Below are positions 5,808-47,452 of a stretch of 64,000 bases of DNA, in pieces; position 1 is the stretch's first letter, and the number at the start of each line of letters is the position of its first letter. The stretch is taken from the NCBI RefSeq assembly GCF_026109735.1, contig NZ_CP069620.1, forward strand, positions 868,001-932,000, read 5' to 3'. A program made the position numbers and the translations under genes. Origin of the DNA: Salinimicrobium tongyeongense (GTDB lineage: Bacteria; Bacteroidota; Bacteroidia; Flavobacteriales; Flavobacteriaceae). The notes below the pieces were generated by a model. The model ran no database searches and was not told where the DNA came from. It saw only the letters and a program-made list of their open reading frames with translations.

Positions 5808-5811
5808 AGTG

Positions 5812-5824
5812 TCACCTCCTTTCT
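5812..5824 (-). promoter_or_regulatory. 13-nt Shine-Dalgarno of rpsU
   Basis: The minus strand reads AGAAAGGAGGTGA, then CACT, then the rpsU ATG at 5807. These 13 nt complement the usual Bacteroidota 16S 3' tail (TCACCTCCTTTCT) without mismatch, and GGAGG to ATG is 7 nt. No other start in the window has anything comparable. Confidence 0.9.
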
Positions 5825-5845
5825 TTAAAAATTATTTTCGAGCTG

Positions 5846-5875
5846 CAAAGATAATCGTTAATTACAAACTCACAA
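5846..5875 (-). promoter_or_regulatory. Putative rpsU promoter
   Basis: On the minus strand TTG (5875-5873), a 19-nt spacer, and TATCTTTG (5853-5846) match the Bacteroidota -33/-7 consensus. The transcript would start about 30 nt before the rpsU ATG, leaving a short leader made mostly of the SD. Confidence 0.6.
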
Positions 5876-5898
5876 TTTAAATTTGTTTTTATTTCTTA

Positions 5899-5974
5899 AA
5901 AATTCCAAGCACCAAAATCCAAATTCCAAGCATCAAATTTCCAAAACCTTGAACCTGGATCCTTGAACCTTGAA
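5899..5974. repeat. Low-complexity intergenic repeat
   Basis: Tandem-like words CCAAGCACCAAAATCC, CCAAGCATCAAATTTCC and CCTTGAACCTTGAAC fill the space between rpsU and the acyl-CoA dehydrogenase. Similar wording occurs at 3810-3876, 16990-17150 and 28149-28180. It is non-coding. Confidence 0.45.
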
Positions 5975-7144: not shown

Positions 7145-7201
7145 AAAAGTTTGTTTCTGAATGTTTTTTAACCTGAAAATCTAATTGGAGATGCGAAAAA
7201 C

Positions 7202-8080
7202 TCAGTTTTTCGGGTCGGTGCTCAAATATAGGGCAATTCTGTCTAATTTTTCCACGGGAAAATTCCTAATCTGCCCAAGTTCTTCGAGATTTTTCACCTG
7301 GCCTGCCTCTTCCCTGTACCTAATTATTGCCCGCGCCTGCTCATAGTTAAAGTAAGGGATCCTGGTGAGCTGCATCAGGCTTACTTCATTAACATCAAAG
7401 CGCGCTTCTGCCCTTTTTGGCACCTCAAAACTGCGCAGCAGCCTTTTCACCACTTCTGGAGATAAACCGTAGACATCATTAAGCTGCACCTCACCTCTAA
7501 AGCCGCCAAGCGAATTACGGTACTTCACAATTCGGGCAGAAAGTCTTTCCCCAATGCCGTTCACCCGCTGCAGGTCTTCGGCTGTGGCAGTATTGAGATC
7601 AGCTTTGGGAAGAGGTGTCAAAAATGCCTTTTTTGACAACCTGTTTTCTTCGGAAGTATTTCTGCGGAAATCGGGAAACTGAAAAGAAGGCGCCAGTACC
7701 TTCAGCAAAGAATCTGAAACCCCCGTCACAGCCTGAAAATCTTCAGCTGAATTGATCCACAAATCACGCTCCCGATAATCATGAAGCCGGTCTATCTGCA
7801 CTACCGAAAGCCCCAGCAGATAGCCCTTATAATCTGAAATAAAATTCGGGTTAAATGGCGCCACAGCATCAAGATCTCTTTCGGCCTTTATTTGTTTTAA
7901 TGAATCTATGGAGCGCTGCATTTCAGCGGCGATGCGCTCCACTTCGGGATCTGGCACTTCTTCCGAAGAAAAGGGAAAAAAGAAATAAACCGCCTGGAGA
8001 ATGATGATGATCCCTACCAAAACAAAAATCCCATTTTGCTGACTTCTGGTGAAAACAAAATGGGATTTCCAGTTTTTCAT
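7202..8080 (-). CDS. Membrane-anchored helix-hairpin-helix protein (ComEA-like)
   Basis: A 292-residue protein with a basic start, one membrane helix (about residues 17-38), then a periplasmic part with three ComEA/HhH-type repeats. The clearest are LNTATAEDLQRVNGIGERLSARIVKYR and VSLMQLTRIPYFNYEQARAIIRYRE, with an earlier weaker copy near YLLGLSVVQIDRL. Such domains bind DNA non-specifically; ComEA captures DNA during natural uptake. Many Bacteroidota carry this longer triple-HhH form of unproved role. It sits 14 nt upstream of nothing coding on its own strand except the downstream dehydrogenase. Confidence 0.75.
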   Translation of the reverse strand: MKNWKSHFVFTRSQQNGIFVLVGIIIILQAVYFFFPFSSEEVPDPEVERIAAEMQRSIDSLKQIKAERDLDAVAPFNPNFISDYKGYLLGLSVVQIDRLHDYRERDLWINSAEDFQAVTGVSDSLLKVLAPSFQFPDFRRNTSEENRLSKKAFLTPLPKADLNTATAEDLQRVNGIGERLSARIVKYRNSLGGFRGEVQLNDVYGLSPEVVKRLLRSFEVPKRAEARFDVNEVSLMQLTRIPYFNYEQARAIIRYREEAGQVKNLEELGQIRNFPVEKLDRIALYLSTDPKN

Positions 8081-8094
8081 ATGTAAATAGGAAC

Positions 8095-10182: not shown

Positions 10183-10318
10183 AAATGAATTTTAGAATAA
10201 TACTAAATGGAATTTTCGGCGAAGCAAGATGCTAAAAATATTAACGTTTTCAAATTTTATGAAGTTAAATTGCAAAGAAAACGTTAACCTGTAAGACTTA
10301 AGCGATTTTCGGTTTTTT

Positions 10319-10549
10319 CTAAAGATCAAAAACAGAGGTACGCTTCGAATAAATCATATCCTTGAACCTGAGGAGAAAAGCAAATGTGAGATAAATTGCA
10401 AACCCAATCCCAAAAGTGGCAAACGAAAGGTAGATAAAAAATAATCTTACGTTTTTTGCCCGCATCCCCAGCTTATCGGCAAAGCGCGAGGAAACATAAA
10501 ATCCATGCCTCTCGAAAAAGTTCCTAATCTGGTTCACCCATTTCTGCAT
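10319..10549 (-). CDS. PspC-domain membrane protein
   Basis: A 76-residue protein with one or two hydrophobic segments (FFIYLSFATFGIGFAIYLTFAFLL) after a basic, amphipathic start with GFYVSSRFADKLGMRAKNVRLFF. This pattern fits the PspC family, linked to envelope stress in other bacteria. It starts 12 nt after the end of the DUF2851 gene and may be read from the same transcript. Its role here is unknown. Confidence 0.7.
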   Translation of the reverse strand: MQKWVNQIRNFFERHGFYVSSRFADKLGMRAKNVRLFFIYLSFATFGIGFAIYLTFAFLLRFKDMIYSKRTSVFDL

Positions 10550-10561
10550 TTTACAAAGATA

Positions 10562-11851
10562 TTAAATTTGTGGTTGCGGTTGCAGGATCTCCAATCCCAC
10601 TGCACACTTAAGGCAGGCGTTTCTGTCACAGTACTCTTTTTTCAATTGCAACAGGGCCTGTGAACCTAATGCATTCTTTACCATACCCGGCTTTAGCCTC
10701 TTAAACTTTCTTACAATTTCGTTTTCCTCGGCGGCCACTGCCTCCATAAGCGGAGCTATGATCTCAAAAGCATCTTTACCTTCGCTTTGGAGATATGCGA
10801 ATTTTACAGGAACCACCGTATTCACGATAAGAAGGTCCAAAAACTTTTTCCCGGGCTTCTTTAGCCTGGGTTTGTGCTTACGTAGAAACGTATAATGGGA
10901 ATTCCAGAAATCATTTAAACGCACCTCAAAAAGTTCATGAACCTGCTGCGGATTTTGACATTTTTGAAGCCTTGAAAAAAGCGAAGCCTGTTCAGAATAT
11001 ACAGCAGCAAGCTGCACCAATCGAATTTCTGGAAAATTATCGGGCCTGAGCCGAAAATATTTTACCGGCAACACTCCTTTCCTGCTCAGGCCAAACTTAT
11101 GCTGAAGATATAAGTAAGTATCTTTTAACTTCAAATAATAAGGCTCTTCATGATCTTTTTCGAGTAGCCCCGCCTGCCCTAACAGCAAAGCTTCAAGATT
11201 TAGGGAATTTGCCCTCACCTTTCTTATTACCGAAAAAGGAATAGATGCCGCTATACTTAAAAAAGCCTCCCCGTTTATATTAAGACCAAAGTTCTTTGCC
11301 AGCATTTGAAAGAGCACTGCTTCCCAGTCTCCGGTACTTTTTGAAAGCAGCTCTCTTAATAGAGCAGATTTTTTCTCCAGCCGTTCCACGTAAAGCCGTT
11401 CCAGCCAGCTGGTCATTGTAAAATTATCAATTGAGGGCAGGTCCTGTTCACAATTGATCCATTTGCCCTGACTTTCTTCACACAAGCGGATGTAGCTATC
11501 GAGATTTTTAGGGGAAACCAGAGACTGCAACTCCATTACCGGAAGCAGGGAATTATCTCTTCGGAAAATATCCACATCATGTATCCATACCACATGAAGC
11601 ACCACGTTATCGTAAGCAGGATCGGTTTCGTGACCGTGCATGTACCAGTCTGATGAACGAATATGGATCTCCACATTGCCTGCCCATTCCTGATCGTTAA
11701 TTCGCAGCCGGGAGTAAAAGAAATCGGGGCCGGAAAGCTCATTGTGCCGGCCCGGTGAAATAACCCTAACCCGCGCTCCATCTACAGTTTTCATTTCCTG
11801 TAGATCAAACTTCTGAAACTGCCATAGGTAATGTAAATAATCTTCCCGCAT
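10562..11851 (-). CDS. DUF2851 family protein
   Basis: A soluble 429-residue protein typical of Bacteroidota (DUF2851), of unknown function. It begins MREDYLHYLWQFQKFD and carries the family segments HNELSGPDFFYSRLRI, GNVEIHIRSSDWYMHGHE and VVLHVVWIHD near the N-terminus, which look like a restriction-endonuclease-fold core. The C-terminus has Cys residues (CDRNACLKCAVG). I start at the Met at 11851; an upstream Met would add 13 hydrophobic, poorly conserved residues. It is followed closely by the pspC-like gene. Confidence 0.8.
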   Translation of the reverse strand: MREDYLHYLWQFQKFDLQEMKTVDGARVRVISPGRHNELSGPDFFYSRLRINDQEWAGNVEIHIRSSDWYMHGHETDPAYDNVVLHVVWIHDVDIFRRDNSLLPVMELQSLVSPKNLDSYIRLCEESQGKWINCEQDLPSIDNFTMTSWLERLYVERLEKKSALLRELLSKSTGDWEAVLFQMLAKNFGLNINGEAFLSIAASIPFSVIRKVRANSLNLEALLLGQAGLLEKDHEEPYYLKLKDTYLYLQHKFGLSRKGVLPVKYFRLRPDNFPEIRLVQLAAVYSEQASLFSRLQKCQNPQQVHELFEVRLNDFWNSHYTFLRKHKPRLKKPGKKFLDLLIVNTVVPVKFAYLQSEGKDAFEIIAPLMEAVAAEENEIVRKFKRLKPGMVKNALGSQALLQLKKEYCDRNACLKCAVGLEILQPQPQI

Positions 11852-11929
11852 CAAATAAATGTATGGAATAATTCCACACCCTATTGACAATCAACAAAAT
11901 AATCTGAAAGATTAAGCTTACAAATACTG

Positions 11930-12628
11930 TTAATTTTCTACCGGTAACTTTTGATTTACCTCTTCGTAAATCTTCTCTACCCAAAGGCGGTACATTTCAC
12001 CACTGGGGTGCAGGTTGTCATCGGCAATTAATTCAGGTTGATCTACGGCCTGTCGGGAAATCGGGGTAATATCATAAAAATCTACTTCAAAGCTGGCAGC
12101 TACTTCTTTAAAAACCTCATTGAATTTATCAATCTCATGTCCAATTTCTTCAGCATTTTCGGCACCAAAGGGTGTCACCCCATAATCGGGAATGCTCACC
12201 GCAAACACTCCTTCTGTGCCATTGCCCGAATGTGCAATGGCCTGCTGAAATATCCTGTTAAGGTCTTCGCGATAAGCTGTTATGGATTTTCCCTGATACT
12301 GGTTATTCACACCAATGAGCACCGATACAAGCTCGTATTTTTCATTATTGAGTTGTGCATCCATGGCCTCCAGAAGGTTTTGGGTAGTCCAGCCGGTTGT
12401 GGCAATAATGCGCGGATCTTCGATCTCCACCCCATGGGCCCTTAGTTTTTCTACAAGCTGGACAGGCCACCTCCTACCCGGTTCCACACTTTCACCAATA
12501 GTATATGTATCTCCCAAAGCCAGGTAGCGCAACGGATTCTCTTCCACCACCATTACATTTTCCGAAGAGTTCTCTTTACAGCCAACAAGCAGCACCAGCA
12601 TGCAACCGATTAGAAAAATTTGTCTCAT
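11930..12628 (-). CDS. SGNH/GDSL-family hydrolase lipoprotein
   Basis: Probably a lipid-anchored esterase. The N-terminus MRQIFLIGCMLVLLVGCKEN is a lipoprotein signal with lipobox LVGC. Block I is altered, LALGDTYTIGES instead of GDS, and puts Asp-Thr where the Ser usually stands. Other blocks are GVNNQYQG (block III Asn) and DNLHPSGEMY (block V Asp-His). The GDT form is seen in some SGNH members; whether Thr acts as nucleophile is unknown. The start at 12628 is chosen for the signal peptide. The gene is followed 78 nt later by DUF2851 on the same strand. Confidence 0.8.
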   Translation of the reverse strand: MRQIFLIGCMLVLLVGCKENSSENVMVVEENPLRYLALGDTYTIGESVEPGRRWPVQLVEKLRAHGVEIEDPRIIATTGWTTQNLLEAMDAQLNNEKYELVSVLIGVNNQYQGKSITAYREDLNRIFQQAIAHSGNGTEGVFAVSIPDYGVTPFGAENAEEIGHEIDKFNEVFKEVAASFEVDFYDITPISRQAVDQPELIADDNLHPSGEMYRLWVEKIYEEVNQKLPVEN

Positions 12629-12710
12629 CAAATTATTTTTTATGTCACTAAAGTATAATTTTCTGCCGCTGCAGTACAAATCCTCTCGGGAAGTTTTTCA
12701 GAAATAATCT

Positions 12711-12729
12711 TCAAAAATGACATTTTTGA
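12711..12729. repeat. Dispersed palindrome, perfect copy
   Basis: TCAAAAATGACATTTTTGA: 9-bp arms around one central base. It is one of three perfect copies in the window (others at 39107 and 39626). Here it lies between the divergent SGNH hydrolase and small membrane protein genes. Confidence 0.7.
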
Positions 12730-12823
12730 GAGCTTATTATTTAGAAATCTTAATTCACGGTTAAAGCGGTTGCTGCTCGGTTTTTTTTCAGCTAATTATT
12801 TTATCTTACTCAAAACCTTGCCC

Positions 12824-13000
12824 ATGAAGCCCACACCACCCGCCCCGGGAGAGCAAAACCCTGATGACAGAACCCCGGAACTTCCAAAGAAAGACAGTAA
12901 ATTCAGTGCTATTATCAAAAAAATCGGATTTAATATCTGGCTGGCAGTAATGGTGATTGGAGGTGCGCTGGCTTTTATCACAGCCCTTTTCCTGTTATGA
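12824..13000 (+). CDS. Small single-pass membrane protein, unknown
   Basis: A 58-residue protein, from MKPTPPAPGEQNPDD, with a Pro/charged N-terminus and one C-terminal membrane helix (IWLAVMVIGGALAFITALFLL). Its TGA overlaps the next ATG (ATGA), suggesting translational coupling with the following membrane protein. An upstream in-frame Met at 12770 is less likely because it would put a hydrophobic stretch before the Pro-rich segment. I do not recognise a family. Confidence 0.6.
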   Translation: MKPTPPAPGEQNPDDRTPELPKKDSKFSAIIKKIGFNIWLAVMVIGGALAFITALFLL

Positions 13001-13371
13001 AAAAAATCTATCTCCTTTTTATCAGCTGCCTTGCGGCTTTTATCCTGAATTTGATTTTGATGAATTCGGCGGCAGATATGCCCGTATTTTTCACTTCTTA
13101 CCTCAATGACCTGTTATGCATGCCCATAGTTTTAAGCATCTGCTTATTCCTCATTAAAAGCTTCAGCAGAAAGAAAAGCATCAGAATTTCCCTTTTTTCG
13201 GCTTTTTCCCTGGCAGCACTTTATTCGGTTTACTTTGAAATTTACCTTCCGAAGGTGAACACGAGATATACCGCCGACTTTACAGATGTGCTCCTGTACT
13301 TTAGCGGAAGCTTGATTTTCTGGCTTACCCACAAATTTGACAGCCCTAAAAATATTCAGAAAACAACATAA
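12997..13371 (+). CDS. Four-helix membrane protein, unknown
   Basis: A 124-residue hydrophobic protein with about four predicted membrane helices: YLLFISCLAAFILNLILM, LLCMPIVLSICLFLI, LFSAFSLAALYSVYFEIYL, and a last one ending FSGSLIFWLTHKF. The order and the YFEIYLP segment recall small magnesium-citrate or VanZ-like membrane proteins, but I see no motif that settles it. It overlaps the preceding 58-residue gene by 4 nt and ends at a bidirectional terminator. Confidence 0.6.
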   Translation: MKKIYLLFISCLAAFILNLILMNSAADMPVFFTSYLNDLLCMPIVLSICLFLIKSFSRKKSIRISLFSAFSLAALYSVYFEIYLPKVNTRYTADFTDVLLYFSGSLIFWLTHKFDSPKNIQKTT

Positions 13372-13373
13372 AA

Positions 13374-13399
13374 AAAAGCTGCCTTTACCGGCAGCTTTT
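13374..13399. terminator. Bidirectional terminator
   Basis: AAAAGCTGCC and GGCAGCTTTT enclose a 6-nt loop, with A/T runs on both sides. It lies between the convergent membrane-protein and beta-synthase genes and can serve both strands. Confidence 0.8.
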
Positions 13400-13430
13400 C
13401 TACAATTTCGATTTAAAATGATATCGAAAA

Positions 13431-14411
13431 CTAGTCGATATATCCCATTTTTCGCATCCACTCGTCGTTGTACATTTTGCCAACATAGCGGCTGCCGTGA
13501 TCGTGGAAAAGAATTACCACAACGTCGTCTTTCTTAAAATGCTCTTTTAGCTGAAGCAGCCCTTTCATCGCAGCACCGGCACTGTTCCCAAGGAACATTC
13601 CTTCTTCTTTAGCCAGCTTTTGGGTGTAAACTGCGGCATCTTTATCGGTAACTTTTGTGAACCCGTCAATGATCCCGAAATCAACATTCTTCGGAAGGAT
13701 ATCTTCTCCAATCCCCTCTGTGACGTAAGGAAAAATCTCCTTTTCATCAAATTCGCCAGTCTCATGATATTTTTTGAACACCGAGCCATAGGTATCAACC
13801 CCCCAAACCTTTACATTGGGATTTTGCTCTTTCAGGTATTTTCCCACTCCCGAAATGGTTCCGCCGGTACCCACACCTACTACAAAATGTGTTACTTTTC
13901 CGTCGGTTTGTCTCCAGATTTCCGGCCCTGTACTTTCGTAGTGGGCTTTGGTATTGGAAAGGTTGTCATACTGGTTTACGTACCAGGAATTCGGCGTTTC
14001 TTCAGAAAGGCGTTTTGAAGTGGAATAGTAAGACTGCGGATCATCGGGCGCAACATCGGTGGGGCACACCACCACCTCACTGCCTACGGCTCGTAAAATG
14101 TCAATTTTTTCCTTTGATTGTTTATCGGCCATCACGCAGACCATCCGGTAACCCTTTACTATGGCTGCAAGAGCGAGGCCCATCCCTGTATTTCCGGAAG
14201 TTCCTTCAATAATGGTTCCTCCCGGTTTAAGGAGGCCGGCAGCTTCGGCATCTTCGATCATTTTCACGGCCATCCGGTCTTTCACCGAATTTCCGGGGTT
14301 AAAGGTTTCATATTTTGCCAGTACCAGAGCGTCTATACCTTCCGTAAGCTTATTGATCTTAACAAGAGGCGTATTCCCAATGGTACCTAGTATATTTTCA
14401 GCGTATTCCAT
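13431..14411 (-). CDS. PLP-dependent cystathionine beta-synthase / cysteine synthase family
   Basis: A fold-type II PLP enzyme of 326 residues. The start LGTIGNTPLVKINKL, the PLP lysine in NPGNSVKDR (about residue 43), the Asn loop EGTSGNTGMGLA and the phosphate-binding GVGTGGTISGVGKYL are all present. DPQSYYSTSKRL and YVTEGIGEDILP match the cystathionine beta-synthase branch better than CysK. It lacks the C-terminal CBS regulatory domains. It probably acts in sulfur amino-acid metabolism. A TAnnTTTG-like element (TACCTTTG, 14437-14430) lies just upstream. Confidence 0.88.
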   Translation of the reverse strand: MEYAENILGTIGNTPLVKINKLTEGIDALVLAKYETFNPGNSVKDRMAVKMIEDAEAAGLLKPGGTIIEGTSGNTGMGLALAAIVKGYRMVCVMADKQSKEKIDILRAVGSEVVVCPTDVAPDDPQSYYSTSKRLSEETPNSWYVNQYDNLSNTKAHYESTGPEIWRQTDGKVTHFVVGVGTGGTISGVGKYLKEQNPNVKVWGVDTYGSVFKKYHETGEFDEKEIFPYVTEGIGEDILPKNVDFGIIDGFTKVTDKDAAVYTQKLAKEEGMFLGNSAGAAMKGLLQLKEHFKKDDVVVILFHDHGSRYVGKMYNDEWMRKMGYID

Positions 14412-14504
14412 ATCTCAATTTTTCGGCTGCAAAGGTAAGAAAAAAAGCAGCTTTAGAAAGATTGCAAAAGAGGTGCCTAAAATGACCTATTTGACTCCTC
14501 TTTC

Positions 14505-15740
14505 TTAATCGAATTTCATGGCCTTTACCGGAGAAATCCTGGTAATGATAAAAGAAGGAATAAGCAGCATTAGCATACACAACAAGAGGGTACCCAAATT
14601 AACAGCCACAATGTACTCCCAGCCAATGTACACTGGTGCCTCTGTAACGTAATAGGTTTCAGGGTTAAGCGGAATAAGCTTAAGGTATTTTTGGGCAAAC
14701 AACAGCCCCAGCCCTATTAAATTTCCCCAAAAGAGCCCGAGCAGGATTAAATATCCGGCGTTGTACAAAAAGATCTTTCTCACACTCCAGTCACTGCTGC
14801 CAAGGGCTTTCAAAATCCCGATCATTTGAGTGCGCTCCAGGATGAGCACCAAAAGAGCCGTGATCATGTTGATGCCGGCCACCAGGATCATGATCCCGAT
14901 GATAAGCGCCACGTTGAAATCGAAGAGCGACAGCCATTCAAAAAGCGAATAATACTGCTGCTTAATGGTACGGGTGTCAAGAAATGAACCTGTATTCTCA
15001 TAGATCTCCTGCCCTTTCTCTTCCAGCTGATCAAAATCTTCAAGAAAAACCTCGAAATTGCCTACCTCGTTCTTTTCCCAGCGGTTAATTCGCTGCACAT
15101 GCCTAATATCGGCCAGCATATAAAGCTCATCAAACTCCTGAAAACCCGAATCGTAAATCCCGGTAATTTCAAAAGCCCGTATTAGTGGGGTCCTGCTGCT
15201 TTCATCTCTCAAAAAATAGGTGATCGCCTTATCTCCCACTTCCAAACCAAGCCTGTTTGCAGTATATCGGGAAATAAGCACTTCATTATTAAGACCTTCA
15301 CTAACATCTGGCATTTTTCCCGCCACCAGAAAATCTTCGAAATAATTCCAGTTAAAGTCGGGCCCTATGCCTTTTACGATAATGCCCTCAAAATCGGTTT
15401 CAGTGCGAATCACCCCTCCCAGGTAAGCGGTTGCCTGAATGTGCTCAATACCCGCTACACTGTCAAATTCAGGATAGAAATCCTGGTCAGTCGAAATAGG
15501 CGTTAAAGAAACCTGAGAATTGTTGTTGTCATAGCTCGAAATGGTGATATGTCCGGTAAAAGCCGACATCTTTTCCCTTATCTTTTGCTGCAAGCCAAGG
15601 CTGGTTGCAAAGGCTACCAGCATCATAATCACCCCAATAGCAATTGCCACAATGGCAATTTTTATTATAGGGGCCGATATGCTATTTTTATGCTGTTTTG
15701 CGCTAATAAGGCGCCTTGCGATAAACAATTCCAGATTCAA
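14505..15740 (-). CDS. ABC transporter permease, LolC/LolE (MacB/FtsX) family
   Basis: Inner-membrane subunit of a lipoprotein-release or related ABC system. The 411 residues start LELFIARRLIS and have one N-terminal helix (IIKIAIVAIAIGVIMMLVAFATSLGL). A large periplasmic domain follows, then three C-terminal helices with the FtsX motif (ERTQMIGILKALGSSDWSVRKIFL). The start codon is TTG at 15740. The divergent namZ-like gene starts only 8 bp away, so each promoter must lie inside the other gene or upstream of a longer leader. No ATPase partner is adjacent. Confidence 0.85.
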   Translation of the reverse strand: MNLELFIARRLISAKQHKNSISAPIIKIAIVAIAIGVIMMLVAFATSLGLQQKIREKMSAFTGHITISSYDNNNSQVSLTPISTDQDFYPEFDSVAGIEHIQATAYLGGVIRTETDFEGIIVKGIGPDFNWNYFEDFLVAGKMPDVSEGLNNEVLISRYTANRLGLEVGDKAITYFLRDESSRTPLIRAFEITGIYDSGFQEFDELYMLADIRHVQRINRWEKNEVGNFEVFLEDFDQLEEKGQEIYENTGSFLDTRTIKQQYYSLFEWLSLFDFNVALIIGIMILVAGINMITALLVLILERTQMIGILKALGSSDWSVRKIFLYNAGYLILLGLFWGNLIGLGLLFAQKYLKLIPLNPETYYVTEAPVYIGWEYIVAVNLGTLLLCMLMLLIPSFIITRISPVKAMKFD

Positions 15741-40015: not shown

Positions 40016-40412
40016 GGGGTCGACTTGGTTTTGACAGCGAGTCTAATTGAGTTGTAAGCACGTCGAGCGCTGGGAAATAGCTCGTAAATCTCATTTTTCA
40101 TACTTTTTAAACGGCGAGAATAACTACGCCTTGGCTGCATAATCTGAATCATAGTAGGATATGCTTAGTCCCTACAAGGTAGGGAGCCGAGATGTCTCGC
40201 GGGAGCCTTGATTTACGGCGCCCGCACCAGAGGCACCGACAAAGTAAATATAGGAACTGCAGGGCCTTGATGCAGTTTTGAAGCTTAATTGAGGATACGT
40301 GTAAAGTTGGTGGTTTTCGGCCGGCTTTGCATCGACAACCAAGCGAAAACTAAGCGTGTAGAATGCAGCTGAATTGCTTGTTTGGACGAGGGTTCGAACC
40401 CCTCCGACTCCA
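40016..40412 (+). ncRNA. ssrA: Transfer-messenger RNA (tmRNA)
   Basis: tmRNA rescues stalled ribosomes and tags the nascent protein. The tRNA-like part is closed by GGGGTCG (40016-40022) and CGACTCC (40405-40411), discriminator A; the T-arm is GAGGGTTCGAACCCCTC. The tag frame runs from GGC at 40113 to TAA at 40142 and reads GENNYALAA, the Bacteroidota-type degradation tag. The 3' CCA is not encoded. The 3' end is the integration site of the 7-kb element, and its sequence is kept intact. Confidence 0.96.
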
Positions 40413-40413
40413 C
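40401..40413. repeat. attL: 13-bp direct repeat at the ssrA 3' end
   Basis: CCTCCGACTCCAC ends the tmRNA gene. The same 13 bp recur at 47440-47452, and the tyrosine integrase gene lies just inside that far copy. This is the expected att core for tmRNA-targeting elements. Confidence 0.88.
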
Positions 40414-40417
40414 TATT

Positions 40418-40466
40418 AAAAGCCGTATTTCCTTTATCAATAAGGGTTTACGGCTTTTTTGTTTTC
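40418..40466 (+). terminator. ssrA terminator supplied by the element
   Basis: AAAGCCGTA pairs with TACGGCTTT, extended by an inner CCTTTAT/ATAAGG stem, then T6-G-T4. It begins 5 nt after the att core, so it belongs to the inserted DNA. The chromosome's own terminator is now at 47487. Confidence 0.8.
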
Positions 40467-40470
40467 TAAT

Positions 40471-40511
40471 TTGTACGGTTTCTGTACGGTAACTGAAAAT
40501 TAACTTCAGAT
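40471..40511. repeat. Arm-site-like repeat, left end
   Basis: Two TGTACGGT octamers spaced 13 bp (40472-40479 and 40483-40490 region), followed by AACTGAAAATTAACTTCA. The right end has a matching block at 47280-47321. Integrases with an Arm-DNA-bind domain use such paired sites. Confidence 0.7.
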
Positions 40512-40531
40512 CAGGTAAGGAAAATTTAATT

Positions 40532-40539
40532 TATCTTTG
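40532..40539 (+). promoter_or_regulatory. Possible -7 box of a small RNA
   Basis: TATCTTTG matches TAnnTTTG and lies 7 nt before the first hairpin of the candidate RNA. No well placed TTG is seen. Confidence 0.35.
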
Positions 40540-40545
40540 TTGGTG

Positions 40546-40611
40546 TTAGCATTTAGCCGTGCTAATAATTTGAACAGAAAAAGGGCGTTCCGTTGAGGTT
40601 CGCCCTTTTTT
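40546..40611 (+). ncRNA. Candidate small RNA of the element
   Basis: About 66 nt with two hairpins. TTAGCA/TGCTAA surrounds TTTAGCCG. AAAAAGGGCG/CGCCCTTTTT surrounds a 13-nt loop and ends in a T-run, an intrinsic terminator. A TATCTTTG box lies just upstream. No ORF is present. It could be a regulatory RNA, or only a terminator for weak read-through from ssrA. Confidence 0.4.
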
Positions 40612-40644
40612 ATGGTTTCGGAAAACTCGTCTTGCCAACTCCCT

Positions 40645-40661
40645 AACCCTCGTCCAAACAA
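40645..40661 (-). repeat. Inverted 17-nt copy of the tmRNA 3' region
   Basis: AACCCTCGTCCAAACAA is the exact reverse complement of tmRNA 40378-40394 (TTGTTTGGACGAGGGTT). Confidence 0.65.
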
Positions 40662-40664
40662 TAG

Positions 40665-40729
40665 AAAATTCCTTTTTAGCGTTCGAATAACAATAAATAA
40701 AATTCCTTTTTAGTGTTTGAGTAACAATA
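40665..40729. repeat. Two 31-bp direct repeats (34-bp period)
   Basis: Copies at 40665-40695 and 40699-40729 share AAAATTCCTTTTTAG, GTT, GA and TAACAATA, with three mismatches. They may be iteron- or protein-binding sites near the left end. Confidence 0.65.
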
Positions 40730-40802
40730 GGTTCTAACTTGTAACAGATACTCGAATATTACGCGCGTAAGACTTCCAAAAAACCTTGTACTAACCTTGT
40801 AC

Positions 40803-41051
40803 TTATTCCTGTTCAAGTGGTTCAATAACGTTTAAATCAAGTCCTAAAAATAAAGGGCGTTCCTTAGTATGTTTAAAACGTTTCCAGTACTCCTTAAATT
40901 CCTGAATTAATACTTCAGGTGGTTTCGTTTCATCTGCAAAGAGAATTAACGCCCTGTACAATATTTCACAAATTTGGGTGCTGTTCAGGTTTTGGGTTTC
41001 CATTAATTGAATTAACTCTTCGCCTGTGGAAATTCTAAATTCTTTATTCAT
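40803..41051 (-). CDS. Small element protein, unknown
   Basis: An 82-residue protein from MNKEFRISTGEELIQLMETQNLNSTQ. It is helical, acidic at the end (NVIEPLEQE), with a central ILYRALILFADETKPPEVLIQEFKEYWKRF segment. I recognise no family. It overlaps the upstream gene by 8 nt, so coupling is likely. It is the last gene before the non-coding left arm. Confidence 0.6.
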   Translation of the reverse strand: MNKEFRISTGEELIQLMETQNLNSTQICEILYRALILFADETKPPEVLIQEFKEYWKRFKHTKERPLFLGLDLNVIEPLEQE

Positions 41052-41343
41052 CTGCTTCAGGATTAATACCACTACCTAAATTGATAACGATAGGTTGAAA
41101 ATCTTTTTCGCTTGCCTTTAGTTCCGTTGATCTTAAAGTAGGTAATACAAATTTTGCCAAATCTAAAAGGGCTTTAATACGTTGTTCAGGTGCTAACTGT
41201 TCCAGGTCTTCTTGTATCTTATCAAAATTAGCTTCTAACAAGTCTTTAAAACGCTCCCTTGTTTCTTCGGTTGTTCTGTTCTTTTTCCCGGCTCTTGTTG
41301 ATCTTTTCCCGGCTTCTTTTGCTGTTTCACTTGTAAAACTCAT
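41044..41343 (-). CDS. Small element protein, phage-like, unknown
   Basis: A 99-residue protein. A basic N-terminus, TAKEAGKRSTRAGKKNRTTEETRERF, is followed by a helix LLEANFDKIQEDLEQLAPEQRIKALLDLAKFVLPTLRSTEL. This layout (Gly/Lys/Arg-rich start, then LAKFVLP.LRSTEL) recurs in phage and island proteins and loosely resembles small-terminase-like proteins. I infer DNA binding; packaging function is only a guess. It lies 14 nt downstream of the primase-like gene. Confidence 0.6.
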   Translation of the reverse strand: MSFTSETAKEAGKRSTRAGKKNRTTEETRERFKDLLEANFDKIQEDLEQLAPEQRIKALLDLAKFVLPTLRSTELKASEKDFQPIVINLGSGINPEADE

Positions 41344-41357
41344 AATGTTAGTTTGTG

Positions 41358-42749
41358 TTAGTTTAACGTGGTTCTTAATTGTTGTAATCGGTTCAGGTAA
41401 GGTAAAAACCTATTGTTCCCGTTGTGGCTTTTAACCGTTTGCAGGTGGCTTTTAAGGAATTGAGAAACGTTAGTTATTACCGTGCATTGATTAAGCCGTA
41501 CTGGTTCGGGTGGTAACCTCATCTTTTCAAAATACCTTTCCAATTCTGAAATATCGGTTTGCCAGTCTTCAGGCTCTTTTTTTATGGTTTCCGAAAATTC
41601 AAAATCTTCTGTTTCCTTTTTAGGCTGTCTAATCTTTCTAACTTCGGTAACAGGTTCTTTAATTTCGGGTACTGGTTCGGGTGGTTTTTGTTTAGGTTTC
41701 CTTTTTCTAAAGTTCTGCCAGTCCTGCTTAATTAAATAGTCTGCAATATCGTTTCCCTCTTTTTTATCTGCTTCAGGTGCTAACTGTTCCAGTAGATCAG
41801 AAAAAATAAACCGCGTTCCCGGTAACCTGCTTTCTATTCCTGTGGCTTTCTGCTTCCATTCTTTAAAGGTTTGCCCGTCTTTTGATAAGTCAGGAAAGGT
41901 TAAAACTGTTCTGCCTTTTAATACCTTTAGTTTATCAAATTTGAAACTGCTCTTGTTGTAAACCGCTAACCAAATAAGGTCTTCAGGTTGTTCAGGAAAT
42001 CCAAAATACAACGTACCGTAAAAAGCCGTTTTAGGGGCTTCTACTAACGCAACAGGGTTTAACGGGTACTTACTTAATAAATGTTCCCCAAATAGGCAGG
42101 AAACCTTTAATTCATTCTTATTATACGCCTGTAACCAGTTCGGCAAAGGTTCATTTCTTTTACTGTGGTGCTTATCAATAATAGAGTGTAAAAAGTCCGT
42201 TCCTGTGGTGTGGTTGCTTTTATTAAATTGTTTTACCTGTACGGCTCTAATATTGCCTTTAAGATCAATAAAAGGAAAGGTGACCGCGCCTTTTCTGTAA
42301 CCTGCTTTAATAGTGCCTATCTTGTAAAGTTCAACGGCTTTAGTAACATCTGAAACCTCAAAAGGATAAGGAACGTTATTAAACAGGTTCTGAATAAAAA
42401 CGTTCTGTTCGTACCTGTCAGGCTCTAACGTCTGTTTAAGTACCTCAACAGGAATAAAGGCAGGTTTAGACTTTAAAGGTTTTTTGATAGTCACTACGCG
42501 CGCGTATTGGTCGGGTTTCCAGTTCCCGTTAAACGTTCCCTGTTCCTGTTCTTTTATCATTTGAGAATAGCCGTTTTTATACGGGTTCAGGTGGTAACCG
42601 CATTTACTTTCACGGTCGCAACGTCCGTACTGGTTCGGCAAATATTCCCCTGTTTCGGTATCTACATAATGAACAAAACGTTTTTTATTACAAGCCGGGC
42701 AAAAGTCTTTTTTACTGCCTTTCTCTAAAGTGTATCGGTGCTGTTCCAT
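41358..42749 (-). CDS. Zinc-finger/Toprim-like primase protein (DUF6371-type)
   Basis: A 463-residue protein. The N-terminal zinc ribbon has CPACNKKRFVHYVD (about residues 17-30) and CDRESKCGYHL, typical of the DUF6371/primase zinc domain. A Toprim-like part includes PVALVEAPKTAFYGTL and TVLTFPDLSKDGQTFKEWK. A Pro/Lys/Glu-rich linker leads to a helical C-terminus. It likely primes element replication with the DUF3987 protein. I start at the Met at 42749; residues upstream look non-native. Confidence 0.75.
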   Translation of the reverse strand: MEQHRYTLEKGSKKDFCPACNKKRFVHYVDTETGEYLPNQYGRCDRESKCGYHLNPYKNGYSQMIKEQEQGTFNGNWKPDQYARVVTIKKPLKSKPAFIPVEVLKQTLEPDRYEQNVFIQNLFNNVPYPFEVSDVTKAVELYKIGTIKAGYRKGAVTFPFIDLKGNIRAVQVKQFNKSNHTTGTDFLHSIIDKHHSKRNEPLPNWLQAYNKNELKVSCLFGEHLLSKYPLNPVALVEAPKTAFYGTLYFGFPEQPEDLIWLAVYNKSSFKFDKLKVLKGRTVLTFPDLSKDGQTFKEWKQKATGIESRLPGTRFIFSDLLEQLAPEADKKEGNDIADYLIKQDWQNFRKRKPKQKPPEPVPEIKEPVTEVRKIRQPKKETEDFEFSETIKKEPEDWQTDISELERYFEKMRLPPEPVRLNQCTVITNVSQFLKSHLQTVKSHNGNNRFLPYLNRLQQLRTTLN

Positions 42750-42852
42750 TTTTTTAGAAATTACCTGTGGCATTTGGCACAAGCGGCATTTGTGGCATTA
42801 ATAAACCTTAGTTTGTGCCGTTAGTGCCGTTAGTGCCTTGTGCCAATAGAGG

Positions 42853-44262
42853 TTAAAACCTTTTTTCGTATTCCCCTCTTTTGTAGTTGTTGAATAATTC
42901 CCGGTTTGCCAAAAGGCGTTTATACGTCCTTTCTGCTATTCCGAAATCATTTGCTAACTCTAACCCCTCGCTTGTGGTAAACTCTTCAGGTAAGGCGTTG
43001 TAAAGGTTCTTTTTGTCGCCCGGTAATTTATCTACGGGGCTTGTATTGGTTAAGATCGTGTGTACTTTTAAAGCCGAATTTTTAAAGTACTCAACAAGTT
43101 TTAACGCTCCCTTTACGGCTTCAACGGTAACCGCTTGTTTGTTACTTTCTCCACAAGCGTAACGCAATAATTCAAGGTTTAAAGCCAGTCGCAAGGCGTA
43201 TTGTTCAAACTTTGCATAAATTCCGCTCAAGGCTTCATTATCTGCCTTATTGCTCAAGTCTGTTACTGTCTTTTGCCATTCAAATAATAATTGTTTGGCT
43301 TCAGGTGTAAACTTTAGAACGGTGGGTTTAGGGTTGAGGTTCTCATCTTGTTCAAGGTCTAAATCCAAAAGGTTATTTATAACAGCGTTCCAATTTTGAA
43401 TTATTACTTCATCTAACTGGTTTTCGCTCCAATACTCCTTTTTAAGATCGTCAGGAATAACAAATAAAATCCTGTCAAGAAACCCGTTTTCGGTTCTGTC
43501 TTTTGCCAGTTCATTTAGTACGCCCGGTTGTATTGTTCCTGCAACAGAAATAAAGGGTTCAGGTATGTAAATAGGCTCGCTTGTTTTCCTGTTAATCCTT
43601 AAAGGTTTTCCGCTCCATACGCTTAACCAAAATTGCTCTTCGCTCCCTTTGTTGTATCGGTTGAAGTTTTTAAACCAGCTTGCTAACTCATCTGCATAAA
43701 CTCCAATACCTCTTTTATTGAATTTATGAACGTCTGTAAGTGCTTCGGGTGTAAAATCAGTTATAAGGTGCTGTTCCCAAATAGGCTGTACTGGTTCGTC
43801 ATAACCTTGCGCCTCCCTTTCCTTTTTGTTTAGACTGCTAACAAGATCGTATTCCTGCTTTAGTTCCTGGTAACCTTTAAAACGCTGTTTGTCGCGCTCT
43901 TCAATAGGCTTTAAAGCAAAGGTTAAAGGGTGGCTTTTATTTGTTCCTGCTCTTCCAACAATTGAAAGGTATAAAACGGCTGTTTGCTCAAATACTCCAT
44001 TATGTATTTTGTGAGTGTTACCGACTGCAACAGAAACAGCGTAAAGCATTGACGCGCCAATAAAGTCAGTAGGATAATTTAAACTTCGGTTTGTTGCTGT
44101 TATTATTTCCTGTACTGGTTTAGGGAATACTTCAACCGGGAAAGGGTTTTTCTTTGCCTCCTTTTCCTTAGTTGTTACGCTCTTTAATTTCTCTACGTGG
44201 TCAATAATCTTTTTAGGCTCAAAGAGATCGTTAAACTCCGGGTTCAATTTTCTTGCTTCCAT
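42853..44262 (-). CDS. DUF3987 helicase-like protein
   Basis: A 469-residue protein of the DUF3987 group, common in phages and islands and related to primase-associated P-loop ATPases. Near residue 100 it has LSIVGRAGTNKSHPLTFA (Walker A). GIGVYADELASWFKNFNRY has the Walker-B-like acidic residues, and ISVAGTIQPGVLNELAKD matches sensor-type segments. The C-terminal TTSEGLELANDFGIAERTYKRLL looks like a winged HTH. It starts 2 nt after the small HTH gene stop if the Met at 44262 is used. Confidence 0.78.
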   Translation of the reverse strand: MEARKLNPEFNDLFEPKKIIDHVEKLKSVTTKEKEAKKNPFPVEVFPKPVQEIITATNRSLNYPTDFIGASMLYAVSVAVGNTHKIHNGVFEQTAVLYLSIVGRAGTNKSHPLTFALKPIEERDKQRFKGYQELKQEYDLVSSLNKKEREAQGYDEPVQPIWEQHLITDFTPEALTDVHKFNKRGIGVYADELASWFKNFNRYNKGSEEQFWLSVWSGKPLRINRKTSEPIYIPEPFISVAGTIQPGVLNELAKDRTENGFLDRILFVIPDDLKKEYWSENQLDEVIIQNWNAVINNLLDLDLEQDENLNPKPTVLKFTPEAKQLLFEWQKTVTDLSNKADNEALSGIYAKFEQYALRLALNLELLRYACGESNKQAVTVEAVKGALKLVEYFKNSALKVHTILTNTSPVDKLPGDKKNLYNALPEEFTTSEGLELANDFGIAERTYKRLLANRELFNNYKRGEYEKRF

Positions 44263-44264
44263 TC

Positions 44265-44558
44265 CTAAAAAAGTTTTAATTGGTTCGACTGTGGAAACAA
44301 GTTCGGGTTTGTAGTCAACTCCTGTACGTAAGGATAACCAGTAATAGAACAACGTCTAATTTTTCTAACAGCTATTTTGTTTGCCGTCTTTAATCGACTT
44401 ACATAACGGCAAATACTTTCACGTCTAACGCCCGTTATTTGTTCTGCTTCAAACATTGTCATTGACTTAGCGTTTAAAGCCTCATAAACACGGGTAAATT
44501 GTGTATCTTTGCCTTGTCCGTCGCCAAAAGGATTAAGGCTATTAGTGTAACTGCTCAT
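44265..44558 (-). CDS. Small winged-HTH protein of the element
   Basis: A 97-residue protein. QFTRVYEALNAKSMTMFEAEQITGVRRESICRYVSRLKTANKIAVRKIRRC is a helix-turn-helix with a wing-like end. It may control element genes or replication. It lies 4 nt after the excisionase-like gene and just before the DUF3987 gene. Confidence 0.65.
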   Translation of the reverse strand: MSSYTNSLNPFGDGQGKDTQFTRVYEALNAKSMTMFEAEQITGVRRESICRYVSRLKTANKIAVRKIRRCSITGYPYVQELTTNPNLFPQSNQLKLF

Positions 44559-44562
44559 AGCC

Positions 44563-44844
44563 TTATTTTTTTAGTTCGGTTAAACTTCCTAAAATTTCGC
44601 TTCGCTTGTAGTACCTTTTCCCTGCAATGCTATAAGCTTTCACCTTGGACTTATTAGTCCAATGCCAAAGGGTTGTTTCGTGAATTTGCAGTAGGTTTGC
44701 GGCTTGTTCTCTTGTTAAAAGGTCATCTTGTGCCTCCTTGTTGTGAAGATCCTTTTTAAACGCCTCTAATTGCGTTTTTACGCCCTCTGTAATTAGTTCC
44801 GCTAATTGTTCCGGGCTTGTTTGTAGAAATTGAATTGTACTCAT
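44563..44844 (-). CDS. Excisionase-like HTH_17 protein
   Basis: A 93-residue protein. The C-terminal HTH, LLTREQAANLLQIHETTLWHWTNKSKVKAYSIAGKRYYKRSEIL, matches the excisionase/MerR-type fold that binds att DNA; the N-terminus is a helix. It probably steers excision or acts as a regulator. It is the first gene of the replication block. Confidence 0.75.
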   Translation of the reverse strand: MSTIQFLQTSPEQLAELITEGVKTQLEAFKKDLHNKEAQDDLLTREQAANLLQIHETTLWHWTNKSKVKAYSIAGKRYYKRSEILGSLTELKK

Positions 44845-44934
44845 AAGATGTTATTTTGATTATCTGAAACCAAAATTGCATCTAATGATTTGGTACTCTT
44901 TGCGTTACTGGTATCGTTTCAGTAACATTTTATT

Positions 44935-45966
44935 TTAGGTTGTTTTAGTTAGTTGTTTTTTAAAGTCTTCAGCTACTTCAATATCGTATTTTTGGCAGTA
45001 TTGGTAAATTTCCTTTAGCTTATCAGGTTGAGAATAAATATTTTTATTGTCCGTTACCTTTTCAGAATTTGCAAAAGTTCGAGCAAAGTAATTTCTGTAA
45101 CTACTATCAAAACCTAATTTACGTGCTACTTCTGAATAATTCTTACAGTCTTTATAAATTTTTTGGGCTTTCCCAGTGGCAAAAGTTAATCCAATTTTAA
45201 ACCAAATATTCTCTTCTACTGGTTTTGTTTCTTTTTCTACTTGTGGAAAATTGAAATTAATTTCCTCCTTTAAAATTGGTAACTGGTTCTTTAGATCAAA
45301 GTATTTTTTTAGTAGCTTATGTATGTTCCAAAATTCATTTATTGTACCTGCTTCTTTTTCTGCAAAAAAATAGATATTATTTAGGTCTTCTTTAGTTGCA
45401 GTAAACTTATTGTTCTTGTAAATATTGGAAATATCGTATTTATAAATTTTCCTAAAGTGGCTTTCTGTTTTTCTAATTTCCTCTGAAGTTGAATTAAATT
45501 TCTTCTTTAAATATTCCGCTCTACTTGTTGAAGTGTTTAAAGTAAATTCCTGAAGTTCTTGTTCTAACTCCTCTTTATAAGCCTTAATCTGTTCCTGCTT
45601 CCATTTGTACTCCTCTTTTTGAATAAATCTTTCATTACAAGATGTTCGAAACTCTATTTCTTCAAAACAATTTTTTACCCATTCAGGAACATCAATTTTA
45701 AAGGCTTCAAACTGTTCTTGCAAATAATCCTTTTCACTTAACCTGTGCAAAGTGCCTTGTGATCTTAGAAAACCTAAATGATAAATAAAAGCGTCTAAAT
45801 CTGCTTTTTCATTCCTTTCTTGTATTGCTTTTAGTACCTCTGAATAATTATCATAAAAAGGATTTTTATAATTCTTATTCCTGAAGTTTTTACGCGCCTT
45901 TTTGTCTTCAATATTGTAAGCATCAACAATTAATAAAAGTGCTTCGCCTGGGCTTAAATTTGTCAT
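44935..45966 (-). CDS. Element protein of unknown function (343 residues)
   Basis: A Lys/Glu-rich, largely helical protein. The centre (EYKWKQEQIKAYKEELEQELQEF) is coiled-coil-like. The C-terminus, YKDCKNYSEVARKLGFDSSYRNYFARTFANS, resembles a small helix-turn-helix or homeodomain-like unit. No catalytic motif stands out. It lies between integrase and excisionase, a spot often used for cargo. I do not recognise a family; it could be a regulator, a defence or an anti-helper gene. Confidence 0.6.
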   Translation of the reverse strand: MTNLSPGEALLLIVDAYNIEDKKARKNFRNKNYKNPFYDNYSEVLKAIQERNEKADLDAFIYHLGFLRSQGTLHRLSEKDYLQEQFEAFKIDVPEWVKNCFEEIEFRTSCNERFIQKEEYKWKQEQIKAYKEELEQELQEFTLNTSTSRAEYLKKKFNSTSEEIRKTESHFRKIYKYDISNIYKNNKFTATKEDLNNIYFFAEKEAGTINEFWNIHKLLKKYFDLKNQLPILKEEINFNFPQVEKETKPVEENIWFKIGLTFATGKAQKIYKDCKNYSEVARKLGFDSSYRNYFARTFANSEKVTDNKNIYSQPDKLKEIYQYCQKYDIEVAEDFKKQLTKTT

Positions 45967-45980
45967 TTTGAAAAAGGTGT

Positions 45981-47243
45981 TTATTCAAAGTAATTAAAGG
46001 CGTCAAGGGCTAAATCTTTGTTGCTCTTCTTAATGTAGTTGAGAAACATTTTTTCGCTCCCGTGTCCTGTAATGTTTATTAGATAAGTTGTAGGTACTTT
46101 GCCGTAAAAGTTAGTCGCAAATGAACGTCTGCCAATGTGAGAAGATACTAACTCCCATTTTTCAAAAGTGTCTAATACGTCCCGGTAGTCGTTTTTAGTT
46201 GGTTTAACGCCCTTTGGTGCTATTGAAACGCGCCTTTTGCCCTTAACCTCATCTTTTATCTTTGCCTCTTTACAAACTTCTTTAATGTAGTCGTTATACC
46301 GTTGATCGGAAATAGGGCGTGGAAACTTGCCGTTCCTTTTCTCTAAAATTTCCCGTACCTCCTTTACAACAGGAATAGACATTTCTTTTTTGGTCTTCTT
46401 TTGTCTAAACTCTAATAAGGGTTTGCCGTTTTCGGTTCTTATCATTTCAGGCTTAAACCTCATAAAATCAGAAACCCTTTGCCCGGTGTAACAGCTAATT
46501 AAAAGCCAGTCGCGCGCATTGTCTAAATAGTCCTGTTTTAGATCAGCTTTTTTAACCTTTTCCAGTTCCTCAAGGTTTAAGTAAATGTGGTTCGCCTCTT
46601 CGCGCTGTAAGGTTATGCCGTCAAGTTGGTGGTGTGTTTTTACTCCTAAATACCGGGCGTGGAAACAGATCGTTTTTATTAGTACAAATTCCCGGTGTTG
46701 TGTATTTTGAGAATAGGCATTTTTATTGCTAAAATCTACATACGCCTTTTTAAAGTCTTCATTTACTTCATTGATTAAAATAGGCTTTCCCAGTTCCTTT
46801 TGTAACCGTAACATCTTGTTTTTGGTAACCTTTACTTTTTTCCTGTTTGCTTCGGTTATCTCATTTTTACGGTGCTCTAAATAGTAATCAATGTAACTAA
46901 CAAGATCAGTAGGAATTATCTTTTGTTGTGGTGGGTTGTAATAATGTTCTATTGTGGTTTTTAACCAGTCCTTATTAACCTTTCCCGGTTGAGTAGAATT
47001 AAAGGCTTTTAATATGTGGTTTTCTAACGCTGCTAACTTGTTGTTTACTTCAGTTTGCAGGTTCTTAACTTCAATATCTTTTAAACGCTGTTTGCTGTGG
47101 TGGTTGTTCCAGTAATCCCGTGTAACCTCCAATTTAGTTTTACCTCCAATAGCAAAATCTTTGTCATTGTGGCGAAATAGTAAACGTAAGTTTAAAGGTG
47201 CTTTTTCCCGTGTAGATCGGTAAAGAAAATTAACAGTAGCCAT
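45981..47243 (-). CDS. int: Tyrosine integrase with Arm-DNA-binding domain
   Basis: A 420-residue phage-type integrase. The N-terminal Arm-DNA-bind part is VNFLYRSTREKAPLNLRLLFRHNDKDFAIGG. The core-binding SAM-like domain follows. The catalytic residues lie in SCYTGQRVSDFMRF (Arg I), KKTKKEMSIPV (Lys), HIGRRSFATNFY (His-x-x-Arg) and TGHGSEKMFLNYIK (His and the Tyr nucleophile). It is next to attR and reads away from it. The arm-site-like block at 47280 sits 37 nt before its start. Confidence 0.92.
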   Translation of the reverse strand: MATVNFLYRSTREKAPLNLRLLFRHNDKDFAIGGKTKLEVTRDYWNNHHSKQRLKDIEVKNLQTEVNNKLAALENHILKAFNSTQPGKVNKDWLKTTIEHYYNPPQQKIIPTDLVSYIDYYLEHRKNEITEANRKKVKVTKNKMLRLQKELGKPILINEVNEDFKKAYVDFSNKNAYSQNTQHREFVLIKTICFHARYLGVKTHHQLDGITLQREEANHIYLNLEELEKVKKADLKQDYLDNARDWLLISCYTGQRVSDFMRFKPEMIRTENGKPLLEFRQKKTKKEMSIPVVKEVREILEKRNGKFPRPISDQRYNDYIKEVCKEAKIKDEVKGKRRVSIAPKGVKPTKNDYRDVLDTFEKWELVSSHIGRRSFATNFYGKVPTTYLINITGHGSEKMFLNYIKKSNKDLALDAFNYFE

Positions 47244-47279
47244 ACTTGTAATAATTTGAACAATACAAATCTATTAAAT

Positions 47280-47321
47280 TTGTACGGTAGTTGTACGGTA
47301 AACTGCAATTAATTTCAAAGG
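47280..47321. repeat. Arm-site-like repeat, right end
   Basis: Two TGTACGGT octamers with the same spacing and orientation as the left block, followed by AAACTGCAATTAATTTCA. 19 of the first 22 bp match the left copy, and similarity continues about 20 bp further. It overlaps the integrase upstream region, so it may also regulate int. Confidence 0.7.
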
Positions 47322-47439
47322 ATTAAAAACTTTAATAAAAAGTTAATTACCTTTAAACCCTTATAAATACTGAATTTATAAATAACTTTACAGGAAATTA
47401 GGGCGTTTAGAAAAGTTGAGGTTTTGCGCTTTAGTGTTG

Positions 47440-47452
47440 CCTCCGACTCCAC
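47440..47452. repeat. attR: 13-bp direct repeat
   Basis: CCTCCGACTCCAC, identical to the ssrA 3' end at 40401-40413. The next chromosome bases hold the original ssrA terminator. Confidence 0.85.

Follow-up and report, generated by a model that had tools for sequence, protein, structure and literature searches.

A candidate phage satellite with a small-terminase relative in the ssrA gene of Salinimicrobium tongyeongense

How does a 7-kb element with an integrase and replication genes, in which no capsid or transfer gene is recognised, move between bacteria? The question is raised by an insertion in the tmRNA gene ssrA of Salinimicrobium tongyeongense. It lies in the window analysed here, a stretch of 64,000 nucleotides (contig NZ_CP069620.1, positions 868,001 to 932,000), whose coordinates are used throughout. 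From sequence comparison, we suggest that the element is probably a phage satellite that joins a PICMI-like protein core to a PICI-like small terminase (TerS). It is the putative TerS, encoded by orf99, that points to phage packaging.

The element and its insertion in ssrA

The element spans 40414-47452, an exact 7,039-bp insertion in ssrA, and is present as one copy in the 3.5-Mb genome. Its features, and those of its target, are:

40016..40413, plus strand: ssrA (tmRNA), the integration target, whose 3' end is the att core (ARAGORN)
40401..40413, plus strand: attL core, 13 bp, at the 3' end of ssrA (exact repeat; empty site in the congener G398)
40418..40458, no strand: hairpin just inside attL (inverted repeat I2)
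40472..40490, plus strand: left pair of TGTACGGT sites, 11 bp apart (motif search; same pairs in L051)
40803..41072, minus strand: orf89, whose start overlaps the orf99 end (84.5% identical in L051; no family match)
41044..41343, minus strand: orf99, small terminase (TerS) candidate (relatives directly before the large terminase, TerL, in five loci)
41358..42749, minus strand: Zn_ribbon_16, DUF6371 and DUF6965 protein (Pfam 3.6e-24, 1.7e-37 and 2.6e-21)
42853..44259, minus strand: DUF3987 replication helicase/primase (Pfam 6.9e-61; phrog_2373 DNA helicase 1.8e-55)
44265..44558, minus strand: orf97, between the HTH and helicase genes (weak Pfam matches only, HTH_Crp_2 0.064)
44563..44844, minus strand: HTH_17 protein, AlpA/excisionase-like (Pfam 1e-8; phrog_66 excisionase and regulator 1.5e-6)
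44935..45966, minus strand: orf343, in a variable slot between the integrase and HTH genes (no family match; replaced in L051)
45981..47243, minus strand: tyrosine integrase (PF00589 1.6e-8, PF13102 1.4e-6; phrog_1 integrase 2.8e-21)
47281..47299, plus strand: right pair of TGTACGGT sites (motif search)
47440..47452, plus strand: attR core, 13 bp (exact repeat)

The 13-bp att repeats in ssrA that a preliminary description had reported are confirmed, since CCTCCGACTCCAC occurs in two exact copies in the window (40401-40413 and 47440-47452) and in none of 100 shuffles. The Rfam RF00023 match to ssrA (137.3 bits) reaches 40415. In G398 the ssrA site is empty and the sequence that here follows attR lies directly behind the ssrA 3' end, with 91.7% identity to the window over 96 bp of the right flank and 90.3% over 487 bp of the left. 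The 3,074-bp ssrA stretch of G398 contains no match to the element. Because G398 joins the ssrA 3' end straight to the right-flank sequence, the insertion is exact and ssrA is intact. The hairpin at 40418-40458 may be a terminator, replacing the ssrA terminator displaced by the insertion. The arrangement TGTACGGT-NNN-TGTACGGT is found twice in the window, once near each end of the element, and in 0 of 100 shuffles; the copy of the element in Gramella sp. KN1008 (locus L051) has identical pairs, which are probably integrase arm sites. A 31-bp tandem repeat at 40665-40729 was considered as an essential origin or pac site and dropped, as the stretch is absent from L051; the analysis identified no pac site.

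All eight genes lie on the minus strand, as first described, and from attR they run integrase, orf343, HTH_17 protein, orf97, DUF3987, Zn-ribbon/DUF6371 protein, orf99 and orf89. Pfam and PHROG matches agree with the earlier identification of excisionase-like helix-turn-helix (HTH), DUF3987 and zinc-finger proteins. The integrase also stood, with Phage_integrase (PF00589) and Phage_int_SAM_5 (PF13102) domains; the Arm-DNA-bind domain once assigned to it has no Pfam match at E<=0.1. orf343 starts 14 bp after the integrase gene. The HTH protein has a further weak PHROG match, to 'terminase small subunit', at 0.049. orf97 is perhaps a DNA-binding regulator, and its position between HTH and helicase recurs in many relatives. 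The Zn-ribbon/DUF6371 protein is a probable primase. For two genes the start was chosen by comparison with L051: that of DUF3987 at 44259 (468 residues; the longest open reading frame, ORF, starts at 44352) and that of the Zn-ribbon protein at 42749 (461 residues; longest ORF from 42782). orf89 has two weak PHROG matches, at 0.069 and 0.085.

In line with the preliminary description of an element that has neither capsid nor transfer genes, no capsid, portal or TerL family was recognised when the eight proteins were compared with Pfam and PHROG, and no PF03432 relaxase either. A scan of 55 further ORFs from the window and eight relatives gave no terminase, portal or capsid among the families listed (25 of 27 for PHROG), and one 'tail protein' match to one ORF. 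These 55 come from a list of 73, which excluded ORFs below 65 residues and any that already bore an integrase, TerS, Zn-ribbon or DUF3987 label; six ORFs of L062, six HTH, three integrase, one orf97 and five doubtful ORFs were removed and three window ORFs added.

orf99 as a candidate small terminase

The usual place of a small terminase gene is directly before that of the large terminase. Relatives of orf99 directly precede or overlap TerL in five loci, namely two metagenomic viral contigs (L148 and L149), one Myoviridae record (ct2t2046, L145) and two Bacteroidota genomes (L014 and L173). For this reason we consider orf99 most likely a small terminase. The earlier suggestion that this 99-residue protein may be packaging-related is thus supported, at the level of gene neighbourhood. 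In L014 the orf99 relative overlaps the start of a TerL gene (phrog_2 4.5e-30), and in L173, whose host belongs to a different family of the phylum, the overlap is 4 bp (TerL 8e-65). In the two viral contigs, which came from a scan with four satellite versions of TerS as queries, the relative is 40-46% identical to the query and lies 2-3 bp before TerL. Their TerS E-values are 3e-26 (L148) and 3e-22 (L149), the better of profile and single-sequence search, and their TerL match phrog_2 at 4.7e-25 and 7.4e-28, with a Terminase_3 match at 2.2e-19 in L148 as well. In Myoviridae sp. ct2t2046, the relative (profile match 96.9%, 1.3e-10) overlaps a gene annotated 'phage terminase', with a 'head to tail connecting protein' and a 'scaffolding protein' annotated downstream.

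orf99 itself gave no match at the Pfam cut-off, in PHROG at 0.1 or in NCBIfam at 0.01; it has four weak Pfam matches, the best to DUF4455 at 0.004. A profile of the orf99 family, built from eight rows including the window's, matches 32 of 397 genomes of the host family, the window's own included. A tblastn search of 50,697 phage records found no match to orf99 and did find matches to other family members. In one phage-record search, 36 of the 40 records listed from 293 covered only 20-25% of the query. Two phages were not counted. Rhizobium phage RHph_N3_2 has a gene that overlaps TerL, with a profile match of only 19 columns (51.8%), and in Pseudomonas phage phiPMW the gene lies three genes before TerL. 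G215 has a TerL with 53% identity to the L014 one, and upstream of it lies a different TerS (phrog_606), unrelated by profile (0.9%).

In a tree of 17 TerS rows, the proteins of the two viral contigs fall with those of L013 and L015, and that of L014 with one TerS of L053. Because of these groupings, satellite and TerL-linked TerS interleave, in a tree with 4 of 14 inner branches well supported and three very long end branches. L117 has a weak, long-branched member of the TerS family.

At 3041-15474, L014 holds a 12.3-kb tRNA-Leu element with 20-bp repeats, an integrase, an HTH gene and the TerS-TerL pair. The ORFs scanned in it matched neither capsid nor portal families, and it may be a decayed prophage or else a satellite that has both terminase subunits. 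In three genomes, at L061 (8730-10032), L064 (8601-9855) and L065 (8082-9644), an integrase stands tail-to-tail with a TerS-family gene, and nothing else obviously element-like is seen.

Related elements and rival explanations

Thirteen elements in 12 genomes carry an integrase and TerS without a recognised TerL: those of the window, L010, L011, L012, L013, L051, L052, L053, L054, L062, L117, L169 and L171, of which L062 and L117 share a genome. Since the searches that led to them started from TerS or the Zn-ribbon domain, they do not sample such elements at random. A labelled HTH gene is present in 11 of the 13 and a Zn-ribbon protein in six, and their replication genes vary between DUF3987, D5/DUF5906, AAA_25 and DEAD types. 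Among the hosts are members of other genera of the family, of another family of the order (L169) and of another of the class (L171); that of L052 is Algoriphagus (Cyclobacteriaceae). Spans range from 4.5 to 10.7 kb. Repeats of 13-49 bp at ssrA or a tRNA gene bound 11 of the 13, in ssrA for the window, L011, L012, L051, L054 and L169, and in tRNA-Leu (L010), tRNA-Ala (L013), tRNA-Met (L052), tRNA-Pro (L053) and tRNA-Arg (L171); no tRNA was found for L062, and L117 was left out of the repeat search. In L012, L054 and L169, the two repeat copies agree in a variant spelling absent from the window. A control with fixed 13-mers from the window gave a recurrence within 14 kb in 7 of 5000 draws; the repeat search ran over many offsets and lengths, so the chance is somewhat above this for the shortest repeats. 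Relatives vary in the slot that separates integrase from HTH and in what follows the Zn-ribbon gene. Their slot gene may overlap the integrase gene by as much as 44 bp or lie as far as 380 bp from it; in L010, L109 and L111 the overlap is 14 bp.

The copy in Gramella sp. KN1008 (L051) is 91-93% identical to the element (93.1% at the DNA level from the HTH gene to orf89, 91.1% over the integrase and right end), whereas the neighbouring host gene is 69.2% identical. Similarly, seven element genes have dS values of 0.14-0.64, and in the flanking host gene dS is saturated (pS 0.79). Since the host flank of L051 is far more diverged than the element, the element moved between hosts. The seven genes have dN/dS of 0.03-0.35 and are under purifying selection. 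The lowest value is that of TerS, 0.028 for orf99, from 8 synonymous changes and 1 non-synonymous change. Two stretches are replaced between L051 and the window. One is the slot between integrase and HTH; the other follows orf89, and in L051 it holds a DUF4468 gene.

The preliminary description guessed at a flavobacterial satellite and proposed a look in relatives for the same gene order. The integrase to TerS arrangement recurs in the 13 elements, and together with the TerL-adjacent relatives it supports that guess. Single decayed copies, or larger elements of which this would be an ICE (integrative and conjugative element) fragment, were the contrary expectation; the relatives read here instead have open genes, att repeats in most cases and compact spans.

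Several observations weigh against a satellite with a working TerS. The structure model of orf99 is poor (mean pLDDT 61.5, a helical hairpin) and lends no support to a TerS fold, and the PDB gave no meaningful sequence match, with one at E 0.99. In Bacteroides phage BF1-TP2 the relative sits in the integrase-repressor region, away from TerL, and in L170 it lies away from a recognised TerL, among neighbours that look phage-like by eye. The 26 loci with TerS matches divide into nine satellite-like, two TerS-TerL pairs (L014 and L173) and 15 of neither type, which include loci without a recognised TerS ORF and are mostly weaker matches; with 15 of 26 of neither type, the orf99 family does not serve only as TerS. 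Among 32 further Zn-ribbon loci taken from 40 matches, TerS is present in one and P194, a conserved protein of about 195 residues, in six. Because most Zn-ribbon cores are without TerS, the shared chassis alone is no proof of a satellite. As to a helper, the window genome gave no match to Terminase_6N, Terminase_3 or Phage_portal. With none of these three families found, a helper would either arrive from outside, like the virulent phages that serve PICMI, or be of some other family. No viral contig carrying the element was seen in four pattern-limited scans. Viral-contig scans yielded no relative when the query was the Zn-ribbon protein, orf99 or the L014 TerS, five loci when it was DUF3987, of which L068, L069, L070 and L072 were read and L071 was not, and one contig, L150, when it was the integrase. 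In this contig (296-11259), the integrase is 34% identical to that of the element over its full length and the contig has its own TerL, so phages have this integrase family too.

An integrative element mobilised by conjugation in trans would need only an origin of transfer (oriT), with relaxase and mating pore supplied by an ICE elsewhere. This is the rival that survives best, and we consider it unlikely. In its favour, the IMG/VR contig L072 has a related core, with HTH, DUF3987 (40% identical to the element's) and Zn-ribbon genes followed about 1 kb further on by a PF03432 relaxase gene (9e-32); a small gene between the Zn-ribbon and relaxase genes is presumably MobA-like. Many core elements have neither TerS nor a PF03432 relaxase, and the window genome has one such relaxase at 2,074,488, about 1.16 Mb from the element. 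The preliminary description had suggested a look for a helper phage or ICE in this genome; the three phage families were not found there, and a PF03432 relaxase was. None of the 27 PF03432 matches in 37 genomes lies inside the loci read there, the window included, in a search of one relaxase family that did not take in the genomes of L051, L169 and L171; the three matches in the L052 genome all lie beyond the length of the L052 contig. The element itself has no PF03432 match, in a search that took in neither other relaxase families nor oriT. The earlier alternative of an integrative and mobilisable element (IME) is weakened to this extent, and it leaves the conserved TerS relative (orf99) unexplained.

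A decayed prophage that kept its integrase, replication genes and TerS is very improbable. The integrase and helicase do match phage families, and L014 has a 12.3-kb element with a TerS-TerL pair in which the scanned ORFs include no recognised capsid gene. Against this stand the compact integrase-TerS elements in 12 genomes, most with att repeats, the lack of structural remnants among the families listed for the 55 ORFs, bar the one 'tail protein' match, and dN/dS values that stay below 0.35 in each of the seven genes set against L051. We likewise give little credence to a mobile defence island in which orf99 would be a decoy that blocks the terminase of invading phages: many satellites encode defence systems (PMC11389934, in the part available to us), and the slot and the region after the Zn-ribbon gene do differ between relatives, but PADLOC found no match among 10 slot and end genes taken from the window and five of its relatives, such an island would still require a transfer route, and a decoy could be a second role of orf99 alongside packaging.

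Further variants of the core deserve mention. P194 follows the core in L062, L113, L116, L117, L118, L127, L138 and L169, stands beside TerS in L062, L117 and L169, and has no confident family match in those tested. L124, L126 and L130 have a core of a second type, in which another small gene occupies the HTH position and the Zn-ribbon gene is followed by a trio of 1022, 541 and 409-446 residues; we take these sizes to be reminiscent of type I restriction systems. L115 (1886-8939) holds a 6.6-kb ssrA core with a 16-bp repeat, a D5-type helicase and a Zn-ribbon gene, and no TerS. The tRNA-Arg element of L171 (6216-10781; 4.5 kb, 18-bp repeats) has an integrase, TerS and few other genes, and is very small if a satellite.

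Proposed way of working and comparison with known systems

A TerS-carrying satellite would work as follows. When a helper phage infects a carrier cell, the HTH and orf97 regulators would respond, and the integrase, the HTH protein and perhaps orf343, which sits in the position of a PICMI gene needed for excision (iolg), would excise the element as a circle. DUF3987 and the Zn-ribbon protein would replicate this circle, probably to concatemers. orf99 would pair with the TerL of the helper, recognise a pac site on the element and direct its DNA into helper heads. Filling would be headful, since no capsid-remodelling gene is recognised. The particle would then deliver the element to the next cell, for integration into ssrA.

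A broader proposal, which we regard as evenly balanced, is that these elements form an undescribed Bacteroidota satellite family of several host families. It would have a modular integration-replication chassis in common with conjugatively mobilised elements, the two differing mainly in the module after the primase gene, TerS or relaxase. Since L072 has a related core followed by a relaxase instead of TerS, one chassis may be usable with either transfer route. Bacteroidota are prominent in gut and marine communities. If the proposal is true, a TerS-bearing family extends satellites to that phylum, orf99 becomes a search profile for further satellites, and a direct test of whether one chassis switches between phage and conjugative transfer becomes possible.

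The satellite families named in the available part of a 2024 review (PMC11389934) are P4-like, PICI, cfPICI, PLE, PICMI, VEIMEs, tycheposons and soil elements. The same part mentions new types found recently in Cyanobacteria and Actinobacteria. The elements of PMC12324425 are without terminases, as far as the available part of that paper goes. Titles and abstract starts in the literature searched describe no Bacteroidota phage satellite, which is weak evidence of novelty as most subscription journals lay outside the search.

The closest comparison in protein content is with PICMI, defined by an integrase, AlpA (PF05930 or PF12728), a primase (DUF3987 or DUF5906) and location at fis. According to the same partly available source (PMC10803314), PICMIs are Vibrionaceae elements without capsid-remodelling genes (PICMI115 is 6,110 bp), their transfer has been shown and they are packaged as head-length concatemers; iolg overlaps the integrase gene. 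The word 'terminase' does not occur in the main text of that paper. The element resembles them in its small size, in having all three defining proteins (integrase PF00589, PF12728 and PF13148) and in a gene directly after the integrase, iolg in many PICMIs and orf343 here. It differs in lying in ssrA and not next to fis, in carrying a TerS relative and a Zn-ribbon/DUF6371 protein, and in the phylum of its host. We do not class it as a PICMI.

The order HTH, DUF3987 and Zn-ribbon is also that of the IME-like element of L072, which differs by having a PF03432 relaxase where the window element has TerS and orf89.

PICIs have an integrase, a regulator, replication genes and terS, and no terL or capsid genes; they have a divergent master-repressor module and are induced by phages. 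The element resembles them in having a putative TerS, identified by homology and position, with no TerL or capsid gene recognised. It differs in that all its genes point in one direction and neither Pfam nor PHROG matches show a divergent repressor module, in that its TerS has no PHROG match at 0.1, and in its Bacteroidota host. 'PICI-like' here describes a proposed way of working and not membership.

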